This document shows positions 6,100 to 49,700 of a DNA stretch of 64,000 nt, piece by piece. Position 1 is the stretch's first letter. Every line of letters starts with the position of its first letter. Source of the DNA: Halicephalobus mephisto (lineage: Eukaryota; Nematoda; Chromadorea; Rhabditida; Panagrolaimidae); the NCBI GenBank assembly GCA_009193035.1, contig SWDT01000015.1:248001-312000 (forward strand), written 5' to 3'. The notes below the pieces were generated by a model. The model saw only the letters and a list, made by a program, of their open reading frames with translations. It was not told the origin of the DNA and did not search any database. The position numbers and the translations under genes were made by a program.

Positions 6100-7503
6100 G
6101 TTAGTCGAGATCTGGAGAGGGTACACTCAGAAGCCCAAAAAAGCGAAATCGCGTCAAAAAAAAGCTAATTTAAAAAACCGGAAGTTCCGAAATAAAAAAT
6201 GAAATGTCAAATACAACCGAAATATTTTTTTTTGTTGACAGGTCAACTTTGGAAATTCAACGAACACCATTTAAAGCTCACAATTGGCCAGTTTTATTAG
6301 TTCCAAAAAGCGTTAAAACTGACGTGAAGTCGGTAATCCAGAATGATGGGATTTTTGTCGACCGTTTTTCTGCAAGGATTCGAAAGTGGCCCTCGCAATT
6401 GCTGGAAATAGTTAATTTGGTCCACAAGTTAGTTTTTATAGTCTTTGAGCAGGCGACATTTGGAGAAATTTACATTTTTCCGAGGGGGTTTTTCGAGTTT
6501 AAGGCGAGTAAATGAACTAGCTATGACATCAAACGCAAAAGTATACGTTAGAAATAAACTTTGAAGTGAGTAGGATTTCAGACTTCCAGAAAAGGTCAAA
6601 TTTGACTGGCAAGTAAACTGTCAAAACCAGTTTTAAACCGCGGATTTGACAGTTCTGACTACGTGCAGAAATTCGGAAAACAATAAAACTTTAAACTCGA
6701 TCAAATTGTCCTTCGTAATTGAGGAAAAATGATTTTCTAAATTTGAACAAACTCTAATTTTCTAAAATAAATCCAGAATCCATTTATTTAGTTGAATTAT
6801 TTTTAGATTAAGAAAATTGGATAAATTTATAAAATTTCATACATCAAAAGTCGAAAAAACATGGACGAATTCGCTTATCATTGATTTTAAACTTATTTAT
6901 TTTTTTATTTTTTAAAATTTTAAACTTATTTATTTTTTTATTTTTTAGAATTTTAAACTTATTTATTTTTTTATTTTGTTAATTTTGAAATTATTTTTAA
7001 TTTAAAAATTTTGAATTTATTTATTTTTAAAATTTGAACTTATTTATTTTTAATTTTCTTAATTTTGAAATTATTTATTTTCTAATTTTAATTTTAATAA
7101 TTATTTGTTATAATCAAGTGTATTTTTACTTCCATGTAAAAATAAATAAAAACAAAAAAGTTCGTACATCGAATAAAGAAAAAAAGCGAATTCGTTTTTT
7201 ACGAGCGATTTTCCGATAAACTAGTTTTAAATCCCTTGTTTTCTGTTCTAACTTCCTTAATTTCAATAATTCTTTTTTGTAAATAATTATGTTTTCTGTT
7301 AATTACGATTAAATTTCTTAAAAGATAAAAACACGAAAAAATTAAAAAATTAAAAAACAAAATTGACGAATTTTCTGGATTATCTCGTTTCAGAAAGACA
7401 TTTATCCAAAGCGAATTACCGATCTTGAATGTGCATTTAAACTCCACTAAAATGATGCACAACTGATGTCAAGACTCCGGGGTAAGCAAAATTATTTCCT
7501 TTG
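6100..7503. other. Spacer between the two SMOC paralogues
   Basis: No convincing gene. An open frame at 6204-6515 on the plus strand has no domain, no start context and AT-driven composition, so I left it out. From about 6888 to 7075 the stretch is a simple tandem repeat, listed separately. Confidence 0.45.
6888..7075. repeat. AT-rich tandem repeat, period about 32 bp
   Basis: At least three near-perfect and three decayed units of the type TTAAACTTATTTATTTTTTT follow one another, the period being about 32-33 bp. Units drift towards the right end. No coding role is seen. Confidence 0.75.
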
Positions 7504-41083: not shown

Positions 41084-42011
41084 ATGTATACCAGGTTGTA
41101 TCTACCAGAAGAGCATAAAGTTGTTCATCACTACGGCTTCAAGGAAGATACAACAGAAATCGACTGCGACATTCTAAAAATCCCGTTCAAAAACTTCGAT
41201 TATGACCTGAAGCTCCAGTTTTACAAACTATGTCCTCCAGTTCTTCTTCGAGATCTCTTCTGTAGTTCAAAGGCAATCCAACAAATCAATTGCCCTCCGG
41301 TATATGTCTCCTGGAAAACAGAAATTAGGAAAAGTTTCACTGCTGATAATTTTGGTACGATTATTGTAATTTTATTATTCATACATTGGACTTTCAGAGA
41401 AGCCAAATCTGCTTATGGTAATTGAAGTCAGAGGCCGTCTATTGCTCAGAGGTTTCAAAGCTGGGGAACTTTCTGCGTATTTCAACAATTACAACTTCCG
41501 TCATAATAATTTATATTTATGTGATAGCGTTTTAAACCCAGAGGAATTCAAAACTATCATCAATCCCAATGTGACAGACTTCACTTTCCACAACCGATGC
41601 TTCTCAAAAGATCAAAATTTAGCAATGTTTCTTGAAAGAATGCCATATTTGGAGAAATTCCGGTATGTAGTTTCCTTCAAAATCCCAGATTTTCCATTAA
41701 CATTGTTTAATTGGAAGCAAAAATCAAAGTTAAAAAGAATTGATTTAGAGTGTTCAACAGATTCAGTTAATGAGTTTCTTCAAAGTCCAGAATTAATTGC
41801 CGAATTCATGATGCGTCAAGACGAAAATTTCAAAATGGAAGTTACTTCTAGTGATCCCGGTAACTGGGATATTAGTCTAACGTTCTTGGAATACTTTTCT
41901 CAAGAAAAATGCATGTGGCATAATGGTAAATTCTTAATTCTCGAGCATATTGGCGCAAGACTTAACACGAAAATTTTCCGTCCGAAAATTGCTCAATCCA
42001 CAAATCAATGA
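41084..42011 (+). CDS. Divergent nematode F-box/FTH-type family protein (tentative)
   Basis: Two exons, 41084-41354 and 41398-42011, give 294 aa; the 43-nt intron ends in CTTTCAG. A TTGTTTTAG acceptor lies 10 nt upstream of the ATG. The protein has no signal peptide or membrane segment. Its character (aromatic-rich segments, LxxLxL-type strands such as LKRIDLEC, short conserved-looking PEEFKTIINPNVTDFTFHN) recalls the large nematode F-box/FTH/DUF38-like families, and a longer relative in style lies at 56925-58169. I see no clean F-box, so the call rests on general resemblance. A 3.9-kb mobile element begins 150 bp downstream. Confidence 0.5.
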
Positions 42012-42112
42012 AAACAAGATTCATGTGTCGTCAAAACAACACCAGAATGCAGAGTTCTTATGGAATCTTTGTAAATTTAAATAATTTGTTCATAAAAGTT
42101 AAGTATATATTG

Positions 42113-42166
42113 TTATTTAAACATTGTGTCGTTCTTGGTTAACGGAAACCTAAGAACTGGAGTAGT
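42113..42166 (-). pseudogene. 3' part of a minus-strand exon split by the 3.9-kb element
   Basis: On the minus strand, after the 6-bp target duplication (CCAGTT in this direction), the sequence stays open for about 15 codons (LRFPLTKNDTMFK) to a TAA at 42115-42113. Removing the element joins it in frame to the exon at 46268-46094, so this is the former C-terminus of one gene. Confidence 0.65.
42155..42160. repeat. Left target-site duplication (AACTGG)
   Basis: AACTGG lies directly before the left terminal repeat and is repeated directly after the right one (46094-46099). This is a 6-bp target-site duplication. Confidence 0.8.
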
Positions 42167-42389
42167 ATACAATAGGCGTATCTAGGACAGCTGGATTTTC
42201 CCCCACCACCCGTCGATCCTAGACACTGATATTTATGTTCAATTTCTGTGTAGAAAATCAGCATTGTCCAAACCTAGAACGGCCGCAATCCCCCACTGTC
42301 CATCGTTCCTACACTCTGATATTTAAAGTATAAATTAATAAAAAAACCTATATTTTTACAAAAAACATATTATAAAACAACATTCAGAT
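42161..42389 (+). repeat. Left terminal inverted repeat
   Basis: 229 bp matching the complement of 45865-46093 with only about a dozen differences. It starts AGTAGTATACAATAGGCG and contains two subterminal units that begin CTAGGACAGC and CCTAGAACGG. Similarity continues more weakly to about 42580 with further units. Confidence 0.9.
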
Positions 42390-42580
42390 CTAGGATAGCC
42401 AATTTTTCACCCACCACTCGCTGATTCTACACACCAAAACCAGATACCAATTTTTAACCATCCAATCGCAAAAAAGCCTGAAATTAAGCAAATTCTGATA
42501 CAAAATCACTAGGACAATTTTCAAAACTATCCTCCCCCACCAGACCTGGGACAGCCCAAAATCCCCCATCCTCATTAGTC
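42390..42580 (+). repeat. Inner subterminal repeat units, left side
   Basis: Two further diverged units of the same family (beginning CTAGGATAGCC near 42389 and CCTGGGACAGCCC near 42544) with the C-rich CCCCCAYC core. They make an ORF-like shadow on the minus strand that is not a gene. Confidence 0.7.
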
Positions 42581-42883
42581 AATATTTAGGCTTACCATTG
42601 CTGAAAAATAGTATATTTAGCAATAATATGTATTGTTTTGTTCTAAGCCTCCTAAAGTCTGCAATATATTTCATAAGATATAATACATATTAAAACAACA
42701 ACTGTTAAATAGGAAATACAGATTTATTAAACCAGGTCAAGATTACATTATAAAGAGGATTTAAATTTCGGTAAGGCGGAAAGTATTTTGACGCCAGTTG
42801 ACAATCGGCGAAACATTCAATAGTCACATTGCATCAACGCCCAGAATGTTAACGTGCTCGAAATGGGTACCAACTTTCGAGAT

Positions 42884-43639
42884 TTAACATTCGATTTCAC
42901 TTTGCTGGTCCTAAATATTTTGAAAGCATTGATTATAAACAAAATTAAAGCAAACCTGAATTGCAAAAGAATAGAATTGCCCGTCGATTACATTGCCAGC
43001 ACCAAAAAAGACCTCCAATGTCTTAACAGTGAGACAGGTAAACGGGGAGCCAGTACCGAGCAAACACCATACGTTGATGGCTTTGGAATTGGGTTTTCGA
43101 GCTCGTTGGAAAACTAGCGGAACCATGAATCTCGAGTTTGGTCCATGAATTTTGCCTCGTACCGGAAAAGCAGGAGTAGGGAATGTGCCAGCACCCAAAT
43201 GTTCCACTTCTTGATCACGGCCAATCTATAATTACAAAGTTTAGAAATATTCCAAAATAAAAAGCATACCTTCTCCAGCTTTTCTTCATTAATGTCCTTG
43301 AGCATGATGTCAAACTCGTCATACGGCAGCGCTAACAATTCATACGAATTATCATTTCCACTTGAAGCTGTTGCAACGAGATTTGAATTAAGCTTTTTAG
43401 TGACAGGAGAACCTTCGTCATCAGATTTGCTTCTGATCTTCTTGCGTATTCCTTCACCCATTTTTTGGCATTGATTTTTTAAAAAATTCTAACTTAAAAA
43501 AATGTTTTTTGATTACCTTTAGATGATTTTTCCACTTGGAAACATTTTCTATGTACTCCCTCGAACAAAATTGACAAGCAAACTTTCCATTCGGTTGCTT
43601 AATAAAGTACGCACGAGACCAATTATATTGTGGAGCCAT
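42884..43639 (-). CDS. BED zinc-finger protein with degenerate retropepsin-like domain, truncated by a stop
   Basis: Four exons (43639-43517, 43488-43270, 43225-42956, 42910-42884) give 212 aa. Residues 15-55 are a BED-type zinc finger: FACQFCSREY with CxxC, then WKNHLKNFLKNQC supplying His and Cys, the finger being completed across the first intron. A basic, nuclear-signal-like stretch (GEGIRKKIRSKSDD) follows. The third exon holds a retropepsin-like core: WCLLGTGSPFTCLTVKTLE, where the catalytic DTG/DSG would be expected but Gly replaces Asp. The frame stops at TAA 42886-42884. Read past that stop, the next codons contain NILG followed by VDAM, like the ILGxD element that ends such protease domains. 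So the domain looks both cut short and inactive. It lies inside the mobile element and is transcribed away from the second gene. Confidence 0.75.
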
Positions 43640-44243
43640 CAAAAAAGTATAAAACACATCTATAACGAAATATTTATTGTTTAAAAAATTGAAAAGTGTT
43701 GGATCGTTGCTGGGGAATCCGGATTCGCGTGTAGACAAAAATATGTAGAAATAATTTTGAGGCCAAAGGCACGAGATAAACCACAATTCGATCAAAAATA
43801 TTGTGCAATCTCCAAATTGCCGCCAACCCCCAATCGTATAAATTTCGTTAGTCCTCAGGGTATTTCCCTTCGGGACCAATGCTGTGTGGCTTGCACCCAA
43901 ATAGATTGCTCAATCCAACAAAAAGAAATCTCAAAAAATCGGAAAGTGATGTTATATCAGTAAAACAATCGTTTCAAAACCAAAAATCATGATGTTTGAT
44001 TATTCCCATGGGAATCAATGCAAATATTCCCGACTTTCAATCCTACTTTTCATACGCATTCAAATCTGCGCATTTATTCTTTTTGACGTTGTCAAATCTG
44101 CATGCTTTTTCTTTTTAGCGTTGTGTATCAACTTTTCTCCAATCCATTTTTTTGCTGTTTCGTTCCCGCAATATTATTTCTTCATTCATATATGCATATT
44201 TCGTGTTTATTAATTATATTCGTATTAATTTTAGATTCGTGTT
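43640..44243. promoter_or_regulatory. Divergent control region inside the mobile element
   Basis: About 0.6 kb between the two element genes, which point away from each other. Open frames on both strands here lack domains. The right end carries AATTTTAG 8 nt before the plus-strand ATG, a likely trans-splice acceptor. Shared promoter use is inference. Confidence 0.45.
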
Positions 44244-45427
44244 ATGGACAATCAAATGGAAGCTGAAATTGAATCAGTGAAAGCGAAGATTGCCGAACTG
44301 AAGGCTAGGCAAGCGACGTATATGCAGCAATGCGAGAACGCGTCAGGTACATTTATTTTTAATTTTGTTGCTTAATTCAATTAGTACTATGATTATGAAA
44401 CATCCAGGACTTTCCGTCATATTAAGTCTAAAATATTTGCATTAGAAACCTTCATTTTAATGTATTCTCACATAATATTCTCAGATGAAGCAAAGTTGAT
44501 TCTGCTTAAATGTTTGTCTAGTGTACAAGAACAAATTGTTCAATTGGAACGACAAATAACAGTGCTGATGGAACGTATGCCAACCCCTTTTAACTCTCGT
44601 CCGTTGACTTCAGCAGCTGAAGGTAAGTTTTATTATCTAGTATTAAAATTATTCTAGCCAAGTCCGATATATTTTCAAAATTCGTGCTGTTTTTAGATTC
44701 TCATGAAGTGTATAATTTCTGGAAAAAACGTGTATTCCGTATTGTGGGCGACAACGGGCAAGGTTCGGGTGTTCTCATTTCGAACAAACGCATTTTAACG
44801 GTTGCACATATATCTTTTCGAATTGATAAGACCTACAACGTTTCCGGAACTGAAGGCAGCTTTGAAGTTAAGTGCATATTCATCTGTAAGAAGTTTGACT
44901 TTGCTGTTCTGTCATCCGAGAGTCTTCCGTATGTGAGCACTGTGCCGGGAAATATCAGGCAGGGAGATGAATATTTTCTAATGGTATGTCTTTTTGAATT
45001 TATGTAAGTATAAATTTCATTTTTTTTTTCAGGGTTATCCCGACGGTGCCAACCATGGAAGTCCTGCGATTACTCCGGGATTTATTGAAGGAATAATGAA
45101 CGATTGCATCCATCTAAGTAATATTATCAATTTTATTTGTCCCATACTAATTTATTTTTGTTTAGTTGGAACTTCGGGCTCAAGACGCGGTTTTTTGGGT
45201 GGTCCGATTCTGCATCATGGAAGTTTGGCGGGAATTTTGCTTGGCAAATTACACGGACTTACCATTGATTCCACGTTCAGAGAGTATTTGGATTCATTGA
45301 CGGAGCAACGTTACGCTCGAATTTTGGGAATTACGAGTATTATGATGCTCTTTGATGAAGGTATCGTTTTATTTGTATTTTAATATTTATGCAACAATGT
45401 TTAGGGCGATCGGACACCGAAAGTTAA
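44244..45427 (+). CDS. Coiled-coil plus trypsin-like (chymotrypsin-fold) protease, probably inactive
   Basis: Six exons (44244-44346, 44485-44622, 44697-44983, 45033-45117, 45166-45360, 45405-45427) give 276 aa, phases consistent. Residues 1-70 are coiled-coil-like (EAEIESVKAKIAELKARQA; SVQEQIVQLERQITVLMERM). Residues 85-260 resemble a Trypsin_2-type domain: VFRIVGDNGQGSGVLIS, catalytic His in NKRILTVAH, catalytic Asp in CKKFDFAVLSS, then GYPDGANHGSPAITPG, and the nucleophile region RRGFLGGPILHHGSLAGILL. Proteases of this group read GNSGGP there; here the Ser position is Leu, so activity is doubtful. No signal peptide, hence intracellular. It lies inside the 3.9-kb element and has no host-gene neighbour in operon arrangement. 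Confidence 0.8.
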
Positions 45428-45544
45428 CCAGATTCATAGTTCTGCGGCGTTCTTATCATCGGAATCAGTGATCTCGTCATAAGTCTAGTTATGTTAAGCA
45501 ATAGAGTGTTTTTAAATAGGACGTGATAATAAAACTATTTTAGC

Positions 45545-45864
45545 TGTCCTATGTGTACTTTAATTATTGATATGTAGATAGCGGGCGGTGGGGGAATTTA
45601 GATTGTCCCAGGTTATTGAAAATTGTCTTATGTGATAATTTGTTTAATTTTGATCGTTTTTTTGCGATTGGAAGGGTAAAAATTGATGGAGGGTGATGGG
45701 GGATTTTAGGCTGTCCCAGGTCTGGAGGGGGATAATTCTGGATATCGATTTTATAAGATGTTTTTGTTAAAATATAAAATTTTTACAATTTGTACCCTAA
45801 ATATTGATGTGGTTCGATGGGAGGCGGGTGAAATTTTGGCTGTCCTAGATACGGAGGATGATAA
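45545..45864 (-). repeat. Inner subterminal repeat units, right side
   Basis: On the minus strand three or four more diverged units of the terminal family follow inward (CTAGGACAGCC near 45846, CCTGGGACAGCC near 45720, CCTGGGACAATC near 45612, and a partial ATAGGACAGC near 45555), each with a C-rich core. The unit period is about 110-130 bp. Confidence 0.7.
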
Positions 45865-46093
45865 ATCTGAATGTTGTTTTATAATATGTTTTTTTGTAAA
45901 AATATAGGTTTTTTATTAATTTATACTTTAAATATCGGAGTGTAGGAACGATGGACAGTGGGAGATTGCGGCCGTCCTAGGTTTAGACAATGCTGATTTT
46001 CTACACAGAAATTGAACATAAATATCGGTGTCTAGGATCGACGGGTGGTGGGGGAAAATCCAGCTGTCCTAGATACGCCTATTGTATACTACT
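45865..46093 (-). repeat. Right terminal inverted repeat
   Basis: Complement of the left repeat 42161-42389, same length, about a dozen differences. It ends ...GTATACTACT against the target duplication AACTGG. Confidence 0.9.
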
Positions 46094-46099
46094 AACTGG
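46094..46099. repeat. Right target-site duplication (AACTGG)
   Basis: Direct copy of the six bases found immediately left of the element (42155-42160). Confidence 0.8.
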
Positions 46100-46268
46100 A
46101 TTGTCTAGTTCTATAACCAAAAAGTATTGGTTAAATCTGTCCATGAAGTTCTGGTTGTTGATGCTTTCCATGATGAAACTCAAGCGCTTATCTAGTTCCT
46201 TGGCAAAGCCAATGAACAGCGTTCCGTTTTGTCAATTTTCGATTATTTCAAAACTCATTCCAACCTTT
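46094..46268 (-). pseudogene. Exon of a gene interrupted by the 3.9-kb element
   Basis: After a GTTTTTAG acceptor, the minus strand from 46268 reads KVGMSFEIIEN, a TGA at 46234-46232, then NGTLFIGFAKELDKRLSF and on to ELDNPV at the element edge. If the element and one target copy are removed, the frame runs on into the 42166-42113 segment and ends at a stop there. The style (FEI..., GTLFIGF) recalls the F-box-associated domains of nematode F-box proteins, but I cannot name it. The gene was dead or died by the TGA and by the insertion. Confidence 0.65.
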
Positions 46269-46782
46269 CTAAAAACAATAAAAATAGATGAGCTAGTTAT
46301 TTTAAATATATAAAAATTCAATTAGAATAACGTCTTCGATAGTTTTAAATAATGATTTTAGCAGTATAAAACACCTTAGAAAAAAATAGATTGGATATGT
46401 AAGAGTTTATTTTGAAAATTGTCATATAAAAAAGTCTGAATAAATGCGCAAGACAATTAAGCAAAAGTTTTGTACTTCATCCAGAGTTAATGGATTTCAA
46501 AACTAAAGTTTTAAATTCTTATCATTGATAAAATTTATAATCATGAAGAAACTCAAATATCTTTAGTTGTCTTTTATATCTTATAATATTCACAAATTCA
46601 TCCAACTTCGTTCCCCATCCTCGGGCATTTTAAACTTTTTAATTCCCATAATCAGTTAATCCAAATAAATTCTTTATTCTTTTTCTTTCAACTCGTATGT
46701 AACTTCTTCAATCAATAACTTCTCAAAAATAACTAATCAGTAAAAACAAAAAGTGAACTTTGTAACAATACGAAAAAACAAA
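46269..46782. other. Intergenic region
   Basis: AT-rich, no coding exon supported; the 5' exons of the interrupted minus-strand gene would be expected here, but none is clear. The right end is the 3' flank of VPS-39. Confidence 0.4.
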
Positions 46783-49700
46783 TTACAACAACGAAACAGT
46801 CCTGTTCCTGGATATTCTTCTGTCAAGCACCGGTCCTGATCTTTCATTATTACTGTTCTCCGTTGAAGAACTATTCTGTCTTGTATGACAGGAATAATGA
46901 GCTAATTTCCCATCTTTCCATCTAACAAATGCACTATCTATCATCTTCCCGCAAATAAAACAATTCACATTGTAGTCTATCACAATCTTCTCTGACTTCA
47001 ATTCCTTCAAATTCAACTCTGCCTTCTGAAGAGCTAACTGAGAAGCTGCTAGATGAATATCAATCGATGCTGCTTTGTTATTTATCGCTTCCATAACTGC
47101 TTCCAATGCTGGCCAAACTTTCTGCAATGGAGTTTCTGCAGGCAACAACTGAATCGCTTCCACCGGATCCAACTGAGTTGGATGTTTCGTCAACAACTTT
47201 AAAGCTTCAGGGATCTTAGCATGAGCATGTTTCATTCTTTTCTGAATCAATGGAAAAGCCTGTAACAAAGTTGGATTTGTATACGCCTTGAATAAAGTCA
47301 CAAATATCTGCGAATTAGGTCCTTCATCATAGTATCTTTCACAATGTTCTTCAGCAAGATCATAATCCATCAAAAAATTTGCATAAATCAGTAATGCTTC
47401 TTCATGTCTTCCAAGACGACCATAAACAATAGCTTTTTCGTGCATTAGATCTAAAACGAGAATCATTATCTAATTATCGGTAATTTCAACCATGTCAATA
47501 TTATCCAATGGCAAAAACAACTTCAATCACGTTGCTTGCTCCCGAGATAACACTTATTCTATCGGTCAATCTAAAAGCAAAATGTCCAAAAACTCTTGAC
47601 ATTTTGCGGAACAATGACCTTTTTAAATCAAAAAACTTACTGTCGTTTAATTGCATTTCTATTGCAGCAGGATTATATTTTATCGAAAAATTCAAAAAAT
47701 TAATCAACTTTTTCCTGTATAAACCATATTCTCCATCTTCTTCACCACCTCTTGGAATCAATTCATCTAAAATCAAATATTTTAAAAATACATTCAAAAA
47801 AAACTTACTTTCATCCAGAACATGAACATAATCCTTCATCAACCTTTTAACTTTGCTAATGTACATCCCAAGGAGTTCTTCATGAAAAATTTCTCTATCT
47901 TCTTTCCACTTGAATATTATATGCTCCAAATACGGCACTACAGCTGGAACACATTCTTCTCTCAAGAAAGACAACACCTGTACTCGATTCAATTGCCTAA
48001 CAACTTCCACATCATCTGTAGCGAAAATTTTGACTCCTAATTCCGGCGATTCCCCCAAGACCCAGAGGGAATATTCCTTAATTAAATCAAAATTAGCTGG
48101 ACCCATGGTTTGAAGATAACGAATAGTTTCTTCTGTGCCATAATAAGGACTTTCTTCATTCCTCGATTGCTGTTTCAAAATATCCAGAGCCTTCTTCCTT
48201 ATGTTTTTCTTAGAGTACAAAAGATACAAATCATCCAACCTTCCGGCATTATAGAGATCTTTCGCCACTTCATCGACGTTGCAATGGTTGTGGGGCAATC
48301 TCAATAGAGAAGGAACAAAAGAAGGTCTTGTTTTCAAGTAACATTTAAGTAATACTGTATCCGCCAATTCCAGAATATTCTCGTGTTCCTTGAATTTCGA
48401 CGTAGAAAGAGTAATTGTCTTCTGTCTATGCTGATCCAGAATCTTGGCATGTTCTGTTCTCATCTAAAAACCAAAATTAATACTTTTTTGTTTAAAAATC
48501 AACCTCGCTCAAGAAGTCACTCAATTCAATCTCGGCGTCTTTCAATTCACTCTGGGTGAAATCCGGACAAGGCAGAAAATTATGAGTTTCTGCTGAATAC
48601 TGATCAGCTCTCATTCTGAACTTTTCTGGGATCAAAGCTGGGAGGAAATGAAGGAGTAACAAAATATCGGTTTTTTCTTGTTTATGAATTTTGAAACATT
48701 CTTCAAATCGCTTCTGAGCGAACAAATTGGCAGCCGTTTTTCTTTTGACTTCAGTTTTCTCCTTCGCTGTCATATCATCGCAGAGATCTGTCAATTGAGC
48801 TGCTAGATCAAATTGTTTGTCTTCAACGAGATTCTTGATGTTCTCTTTCAACAAGAACTTTGAATTTAATTCAAAAACGGATCCGGCACCAGACACATAG
48901 ACTTTCCCCCTAGAACCCGTAGTTTAACTAAAAAGTAATAGTAAAAACAAACTTTGGTCCGTTGCATAGAAACGTCGATTTGACGGCGATTTTCTGAATC
49001 ACCATCGGGGGCATCACGGATCTGATTTCAATCATGTTACTCGGAAGAGCCGCAATCAAGTAAGGAGAATCGTAGACCAGACAAATCGGTTGTTCAGTGA
49101 ACTTGGCACTTGGGATATTGTGGACCTTGGTTCCATCGGCATCAAAAAATTCCACAACAGAAGAGCGGACAAGACCGACAATGTTCCTGTCAGGGAGAGA
49201 AACAATCGGGCCATCTGGAGGTCGATTGGCGAAGGTTTGAACTAGTCCAAGGTTCGTTTCTAGTCCAGTTTCCTCGTCTCTGAACACTTGAACAAAGGAA
49301 TAATCCGTCTTGGAGGCAAAGTAGATGGAATACGAAGAGCACCATCTTATGATTTCAGGATTCCCCAAGAAATCAGATGGATTGAAAGCAATTGGAATTT
49401 CCTCGAACTGCTTCTGAACCAACTTGAAGATGTGAAGCTGTCGTTTTGCCGAGACAGCGATAAATAAATTCCTTTCCTTCTGGAACGGGGTGAGTTGAAA
49501 GTGGATTCATATATGAAAACGAACCTCGCGAACATGTGCAGAAAAAGCAGTTATCAACGGATATTCACTGATGGTAGCTATCAGATCGAATGGTTCTTTA
49601 ATCGAATGCACTGTTACTTGTCCATCAGACAGACAAACGAGTAATTCTAGTGAATCCACAAATTGCAAATCACGAACAAGCTTCTTCCTGAAATCTCGGA

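Follow-up and report, generated by a model that had tools for sequence, protein, structure and literature searches.

A 3.9-kb element with Maverick-type ends and two protease-like genes in the nematode Halicephalobus mephisto, very probably a non-autonomous Maverick derivative

We analyzed a 64,000-nucleotide stretch of the Halicephalobus mephisto genome (contig SWDT01000015.1, positions 248,001 to 312,000; hereafter the window) and found a discrete mobile unit of 3,933 bp at window positions 42161–46093. The unit starts with 5'-AGTAGTATAC and terminates in GTATACTACT-3', and its long terminal inverted repeats (TIRs), which begin with AG, proved slightly longer than the 229 bp given by a first-pass annotation made from the letters alone (Table 1). 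When one gap is allowed, the two repeats agree at 96.6% over 233 columns, i.e. they have diverged by about 3.4%. The unit is flanked on either side by an exact 6-bp target-site duplication (TSD), AACTGG, and encloses two divergent, spliced genes with about 600 bp between their start codons; both the duplication and the gene pair had been called correctly from the sequence. The terminal regions 42161–42443 and 45577–46093 are also internally repetitive, with units of 37–43 nt that have a CCCCCACCACCC-like core and recur at a spacing of 90–224 bp.

Gene 2, on the plus strand, has six exons (44244–44346, 44485–44622, 44697–44983, 45033–45117, 45166–45360 and 45405–45427), all five introns are GT-AG, and the spliced frame comprises 276 codons plus stop. 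Its product has a charged N-terminal part, coiled-coil-like as judged by eye, followed by a Trypsin_2 domain (PF13365; 30.4 bits versus a cut-off of 27.6, E 7.7e-7), as expected from the predicted trypsin-like product. The catalytic His and Asp are kept and the site of the catalytic Ser is Leu (GFLGGP) in the window copy; in the related copy at locus L018 the His is replaced. A protein database search with the spliced product returned 614 candidates, of which 0 had E <= 0.01, and the solved structures gave only a weak match (E 0.006), to a membrane-associated serine protease of bacteria; these searches, like the profile search and the genome searches with this gene, were run with a 277-residue product that has one residue too many at its last exon junction.

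Gene 1, on the minus strand, has three exons (43639–43517, 43488–43270 and 43225–42911) that encode 218 residues plus stop, with an N-terminal CxxC segment and a C-terminal retropepsin-like segment. In the window copy LLGTGS replaces xxDTGS, i.e. the catalytic Asp is gone; relatives in the genome read DTGS (loci L064 and L089) or ETGS (L087 and L088). The window protein was assigned to no Pfam family and matched no solved structure. The retropepsin-like label is confirmed only in part, through the genomic homologue L089, which has LLDTGS and a sub-threshold match to Asp_protease_2 (E 0.011); the BED finger that had also been proposed was not confirmed by Pfam or by comparison with solved structures. 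Since the trypsin Ser and the retropepsin-motif Asp are replaced, both window products are, judged from their residues, probably non-catalytic, and they could still have another role.

Table 1. Layout of the mobile unit (window positions)
Feature	Position	Strand	Basis
TSD AACTGG, left copy	42155..42160	.	flank reading
Left TIR, 5'-AGTAGTATACAATAGGCGTATCTAGGACAG...	42161..42392	+	232 nt, 94% complementary, ungapped; terminal motif 65 times in genome
Inner end-like repeats, more diverged	42393..42608	+	76-, 28- and 25-nt inverted pairs (I2, I4, I6) with 45589–45732
Gene 1	42911..43639	-	three exons, 218 residues plus stop
Gene 2	44244..45427	+	six exons, 276 residues; Trypsin_2 domain
Inner end-like repeats, right side	45589..45732	-	inverted partners of 42393..42608
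Right TIR	45862..46093	-	partner of 42161..42392
TSD AACTGG, right copy	46094..46099	.	flank reading

Mavericks (Polintons) are marked by a 6-bp TSD and by long TIRs beginning 5'-AG, and the window unit has both. They are about 15–20 kb long (PMC13419823) and have a core gene set that includes polymerase B, integrase, adenain and a packaging ATPase (PMC11071308). The window unit differs, since it is 3.9 kb long and no polymerase B, integrase, ATPase or adenain was found in it. Specifically, tblastn revealed no homology to polymerase B or adenain inside the unit, and genome searches for polymerase B, integrase and the A32-type ATPase, in which only the best candidates were scored, gave no match there. 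Hence, the absence of core genes noted in the first-pass annotation holds for polymerase B, integrase and the ATPase (capsid genes were not searched for), and the window copy is filed as a non-autonomous derivative and not as a full Maverick.

We found that the ends of the unit recur across the genome. Within the one assembly to which all genome counts refer, the first 23 bases occur 65 times with <=3 mismatches (35 forward, 30 reverse), and the reversed pattern, used as a control, occurs 0 times. Hence, the window ends are not unique and a lone assembly oddity is unlikely. When facing ends on the same contig were paired by eye, 36 of the 65 formed 18 pairs that are 1.8–19.2 kb long. Nine pairs have their own exact TSD, all nine different (the window, L009, L010, L011, L015, L023, L064, C258 and C88), and four more have their own TSD with one mismatch (L019, L020, C38 and C292). 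As a control, 306 cross-pairings yielded 3 exact 6-bp matches and 0 with one mismatch; two of the three are L013 with L014, whose arms are evidently swapped, and the other is L020 with L021, which have a common flank.

In L013 (C17:491991–495855) and L014 (C55:1301597–1306326), the left flank of each element recurs as the right flank of its partner (CCGAAG; TTTTTC), and their ends match crosswise. This arm exchange reflects either reciprocal recombination between two element copies located on different contigs or contigs misjoined inside repeats during assembly.

The longest pair, C258:69026–88179, is a full-length element of 19.2 kb with a TIR of 245 bp at 98.8% and the TSD GAAGAA. It encloses polymerase B (a 1,354-residue open frame), an rve integrase, an A32-type packaging ATPase and an adenain-like frame (seen in L024/L025); its interior was read in the polymerase region, the integrase and ATPase were located by genome searches, and capsid genes were not searched for. 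The homologue of the adenain-like frame in the short element L011 scores 21.1 bits versus the Peptidase_C5 cut-off of 21.3, i.e. just below. The terminal motif of the window unit thus also bounds an element with Maverick core genes, so the suggestion that the ends fit Maverick/Polinton elements is borne out, and the full-length relative that was to be sought exists in the same genome. The ends of L020, L021 and L023 match the C258 type and the window type alike. Two further Maverick-like loci combine integrase with polymerase B (C264:3026–8376) and integrase with an A32-type ATPase (C28:6796–9553).

Most of the other short elements with these ends retain pieces of the Maverick core. We read 12 of the 16 other short pairs in full (L009–L015, L019–L021, L023 and L064), C93 in part, and C38, C88 and C292 at their ends only; the short related elements are 1.8–7 kb long. 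Among the 12, polymerase B remnants are present in 10, adenain remnants in 7, and at least one of the two in 11, and the C93 pair (L030) has both. L011, L012 and L014 have about 2.6 kb in common at 90–92%, spanning the polymerase B and adenain remnants, and the cargo beside this common block differs (kinase-like in L012, trypsin-like in L014).

The two window genes themselves also occur beside Maverick DNA. At L017 (C69), where only the left end was found, a window-type trypsin gene adjoins a polymerase B remnant, and L064 (C25, TSD AATATC) combines the retropepsin-like segment of gene 1 with polymerase B and adenain. Hence, both window genes are tied to Maverick DNA. Genes 1 and 2 also recur together at L018 (C131, left end only) and at L063, where contig C280 runs out beyond exon 1 of gene 2; hence, the gene pair is an old unit. 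Since at most one end is present at each of these two loci, their TSDs are unreadable, and the genome search turned up no further copy in which the gene pair lies between two ends with a TSD that can be read. The proposed check on further copies thus came out in part: elements with related ends have different 6-bp TSDs, but this could not be seen for the full gene pair.

Relative to the window element, L018 (2882–3215) and L063 (3362–3675) have about 315–335 bp extra at window position ~43960, and their DNA similarity to the window element breaks off at ~43360. From this extra segment and loss of similarity, the window copy looks like a mosaic. In addition, the same eight bases (ATATTAAG) precede the left ends of L017 (L017:987, C69:33086) and L018 (L018:1085, C131:9084), which suggests that the two loci go back to a single insertion, arose by duplication or include a contig of the alternative haplotype.

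Cargo-type genes also lie close to the end motif. Of the 9 trypsin-like loci, 5 lie within 5 kb of an end motif, a zone that makes up 0.88% of the genome; so do 3 of the 11 gene-1-like loci, 14 of the 46 kinase-like ones and 3 of the 6 with polymerase B. The trypsin-like and gene-1-like counts include the window genes themselves. Loci were collapsed by hand from match lists (72 matches for the kinase-like genes), the kinase-like loci are not independent because several sit within a few kb of each other, which makes the enrichment probabilities calculated for them too small, and closeness to a motif does not mean a position inside an element (e.g. C258:91581 is outside the C258 element). Kinase-like genes are carried by L012, L013 and L015, and their motifs were read by eye (K, E, DLNxxN and DF, with D147, L148, N152, D166 and F167 invariant in 4 rows). 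Pfam gave them no support and solved structures gave only an ATM kinase loop (E 0.26), so their identity as kinases rests on these motifs. Likewise, the trypsin-like frames of L014, L020 and L022 are under the Pfam cut-offs, and those of L011, L016 and L021 were recognized by eye only.

We compared the window copy of the trypsin-like gene with those of L017 and L018, setting gap columns aside, and found that exons are more diverged than introns; the three copies are not independent. Window and L018 differ at 93/831 exon and 9/430 non-exon positions (Fisher p 1.4e-9), window and L017 at 154/831 and 22/344 (p 2.8e-8), and L017 and L018 at 123/831 and 30/344 (p 0.004). The contrast is several-fold around exons 4 and 5: these exons of the window copy differ from L017 at 18/85 and 47/195 positions and from L018 at 19/85 and 42/195, and introns 3, 4 and 5 differ at 1/43, 0/48 and 0/44 (L017) and at 2/43, 1/48 and 4/44 (L018). 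These amount to 21–24% for the two exons and 0–9% for the three introns. The effect is not uniform, since in L017 intron 1 has diverged as much as exon 1 (15/84 and 18/103) and exon 3 is just 4–8% from the window copy.

In exons 4–5 of the window copy, the nonsynonymous divergence (dN) is 0.22–0.23 and the synonymous divergence (dS) is 0.40–0.48, and in 11 of the 12 comparisons made by segment dN is the smaller of the two, though not strongly. Positive selection as the sole cause of exon divergence was rejected, because dS is also far above the intron divergence, so that the effect extends to synonymous sites. Candidate causes are conversion of exons by an unseen paralogue and homogenization of introns. 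L020 and L021 are nearly identical in the compared region, so no exon/intron contrast can be read from them. Three-finger snake venom toxins provide a published parallel of exon-restricted divergence with similar introns (ASSET; PMC2711939), in that paralogue exons are more diverged than introns; here, however, the gene is transposon-borne and a toxin role is only hypothetical.

Around the unit, the next gene rightward (46786–47469, minus strand) resembles the Vps39 C terminus (zinc finger; 23.0 bits versus a Pfam cut-off of 24.7, E 5.7e-5). Rfam gave no match at gathering scores over 41800–46500. Elsewhere in the window, 6884–7106 is an AT-rich tandem array with periods of 8–50. Across the genome the SL1 22-mer has 110 exact matches (control 0), as befits a nematode host.

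Taken together, we consider it very likely that the 3.9-kb unit derives from a nematode Maverick/Polinton and is a non-autonomous form that carries only cargo. This option of the first-pass annotation is well supported by the C258 element, the bridging ends and the core remnants, and its alternative, an unnamed family, is not needed. Several results weigh against the derivative reading. BLAST similarity between the window end and the C258 end covers the first 23 bp only (78%, E 3.8); hence, their kinship rests on the shared motif and on the bridging copies L020, L021 and L023. The window copy has no trace of polymerase B or adenain, and L019 has no core remnants either (both by tblastn). Furthermore, 29 of the 65 ends are unpaired (their flanks were read in part only), 5 of the 18 pairs are without their own TSD (L012, L013, L014, L021 and C93, two of them explained as exchanged arms), and an empty-site search with the joined flanks matched only the two flanks themselves.

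The short similarity between the window and C258 ends would also be expected if the short elements were an independent cut-and-paste family, Foldback-like or Ginger2-like, with convergent Maverick-like ends and its own unseen transposase. The long, internally repetitive TIRs, which we take to recall Foldback-type ends, point the same way, and Ginger2 likewise has 6-bp targets (PMC2836005). However, the termini of Ginger2 are TGTNR and its targets RTATAY (PMC2836005), and the window has ends of AGTAG and the target AACTGG; moreover, the remnants in 11 of 12 fully read short pairs and the bridging end sequences tie the short elements to Mavericks, and family scans, which covered a selection of open frames, revealed no other transposase. 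We therefore regard an independent family as highly unlikely. We give hardly any credence to a compact, active lineage of its own in which gene 1 or gene 2 serves mobility and is not cargo: the joint recurrence of the two genes in C131 and C280 agrees with such a lineage, but the related-ended short elements L012, L013 and L015 carry other genes, the two window proteins show no resemblance to integrases or polymerases, and the window copy has substitutions at catalytic residues.

Whether the unit still moves is a closer call, and it could, with a chance that falls a little short of even, be a once-mobile element that is now a fossil with decaying genes, which is compatible with its being a Maverick derivative. 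The divergence between its two TIRs and the loss of the catalytic Ser and Asp fit decay, as does sister L018, in which a 17-bp tandem duplication disrupts the frame of the trypsin gene. On the other hand, both window genes retain open frames and intact splice sites, the trypsin genes of L017, L065 and L066 keep the catalytic His, Asp and Ser (AAH, LDFAVL and GYSGGP in the latter two), and the modest excess of dS over dN noted above argues against decay.

Under the derivative reading, an internal deletion would have removed the core of an ancestral Maverick and spared its ends and cargo. The integrase of full-length elements, and probably their protein-primed polymerase too, would recognize the ends of the short element, so that it would be copied and then inserted with a 6-bp duplication by proteins supplied in trans. 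Passenger genes, which would belong to the same type as the proteases borne by nematode Mavericks, may be swapped between elements as cassettes. Movement in trans, cassette exchange and horizontal transfer between species are steps we infer.

Comparable cargo has been described. According to a meeting report, nematode Mavericks carry wosp proteases and krma kinases (PMC10680173); a review traces the toxin msft-1 to a family of proteases associated with Mavericks (PMC12941216). Here too, trypsin-like and kinase-like genes lie near or inside Maverick-type ends; in contrast, the elements that carry this cargo are short and have no working core. Compared by description, the window-type cargo would be a strong parallel in kind to the wosp/krma cargo. 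In Curculio weevils, bacterial genes are embedded in Mavericks (PMC13419823, preprint), so passenger genes are carried there as well, but the passengers are bacterial, the host is an insect, and the excerpts of the preprint mention no short cargo-only elements. Titles and abstract openings on short or non-autonomous Mavericks/Polintons describe no cargo-only nematode forms, which is not a claim that such forms are absent from print.

Mavericks are reported to be a leading candidate for moving genes between distant nematodes (PMC10680173), and a cargo-only form with Maverick ends would separate the vehicle from the engine. Any full-length element in the genome could copy such small, numerous carriers of proteases and kinases. 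A bolder scheme, which we think rather unlikely, is a satellite system in which Maverick-ended cargo shuttles would exchange protease and kinase cassettes, travel in the particles of full-length Mavericks and diversify their exons as venom genes do; if true, such exon diversification would point to an arms race or a toxin-antidote role, with exon-level conversion acting on transposon cargo. The elements described here form a defined group of loci, all within a single genome, on which the capture, exchange and diversification of Maverick cargo can be studied, and the same group bears on whether toxin-antidote proteases arise from Maverick cargo.

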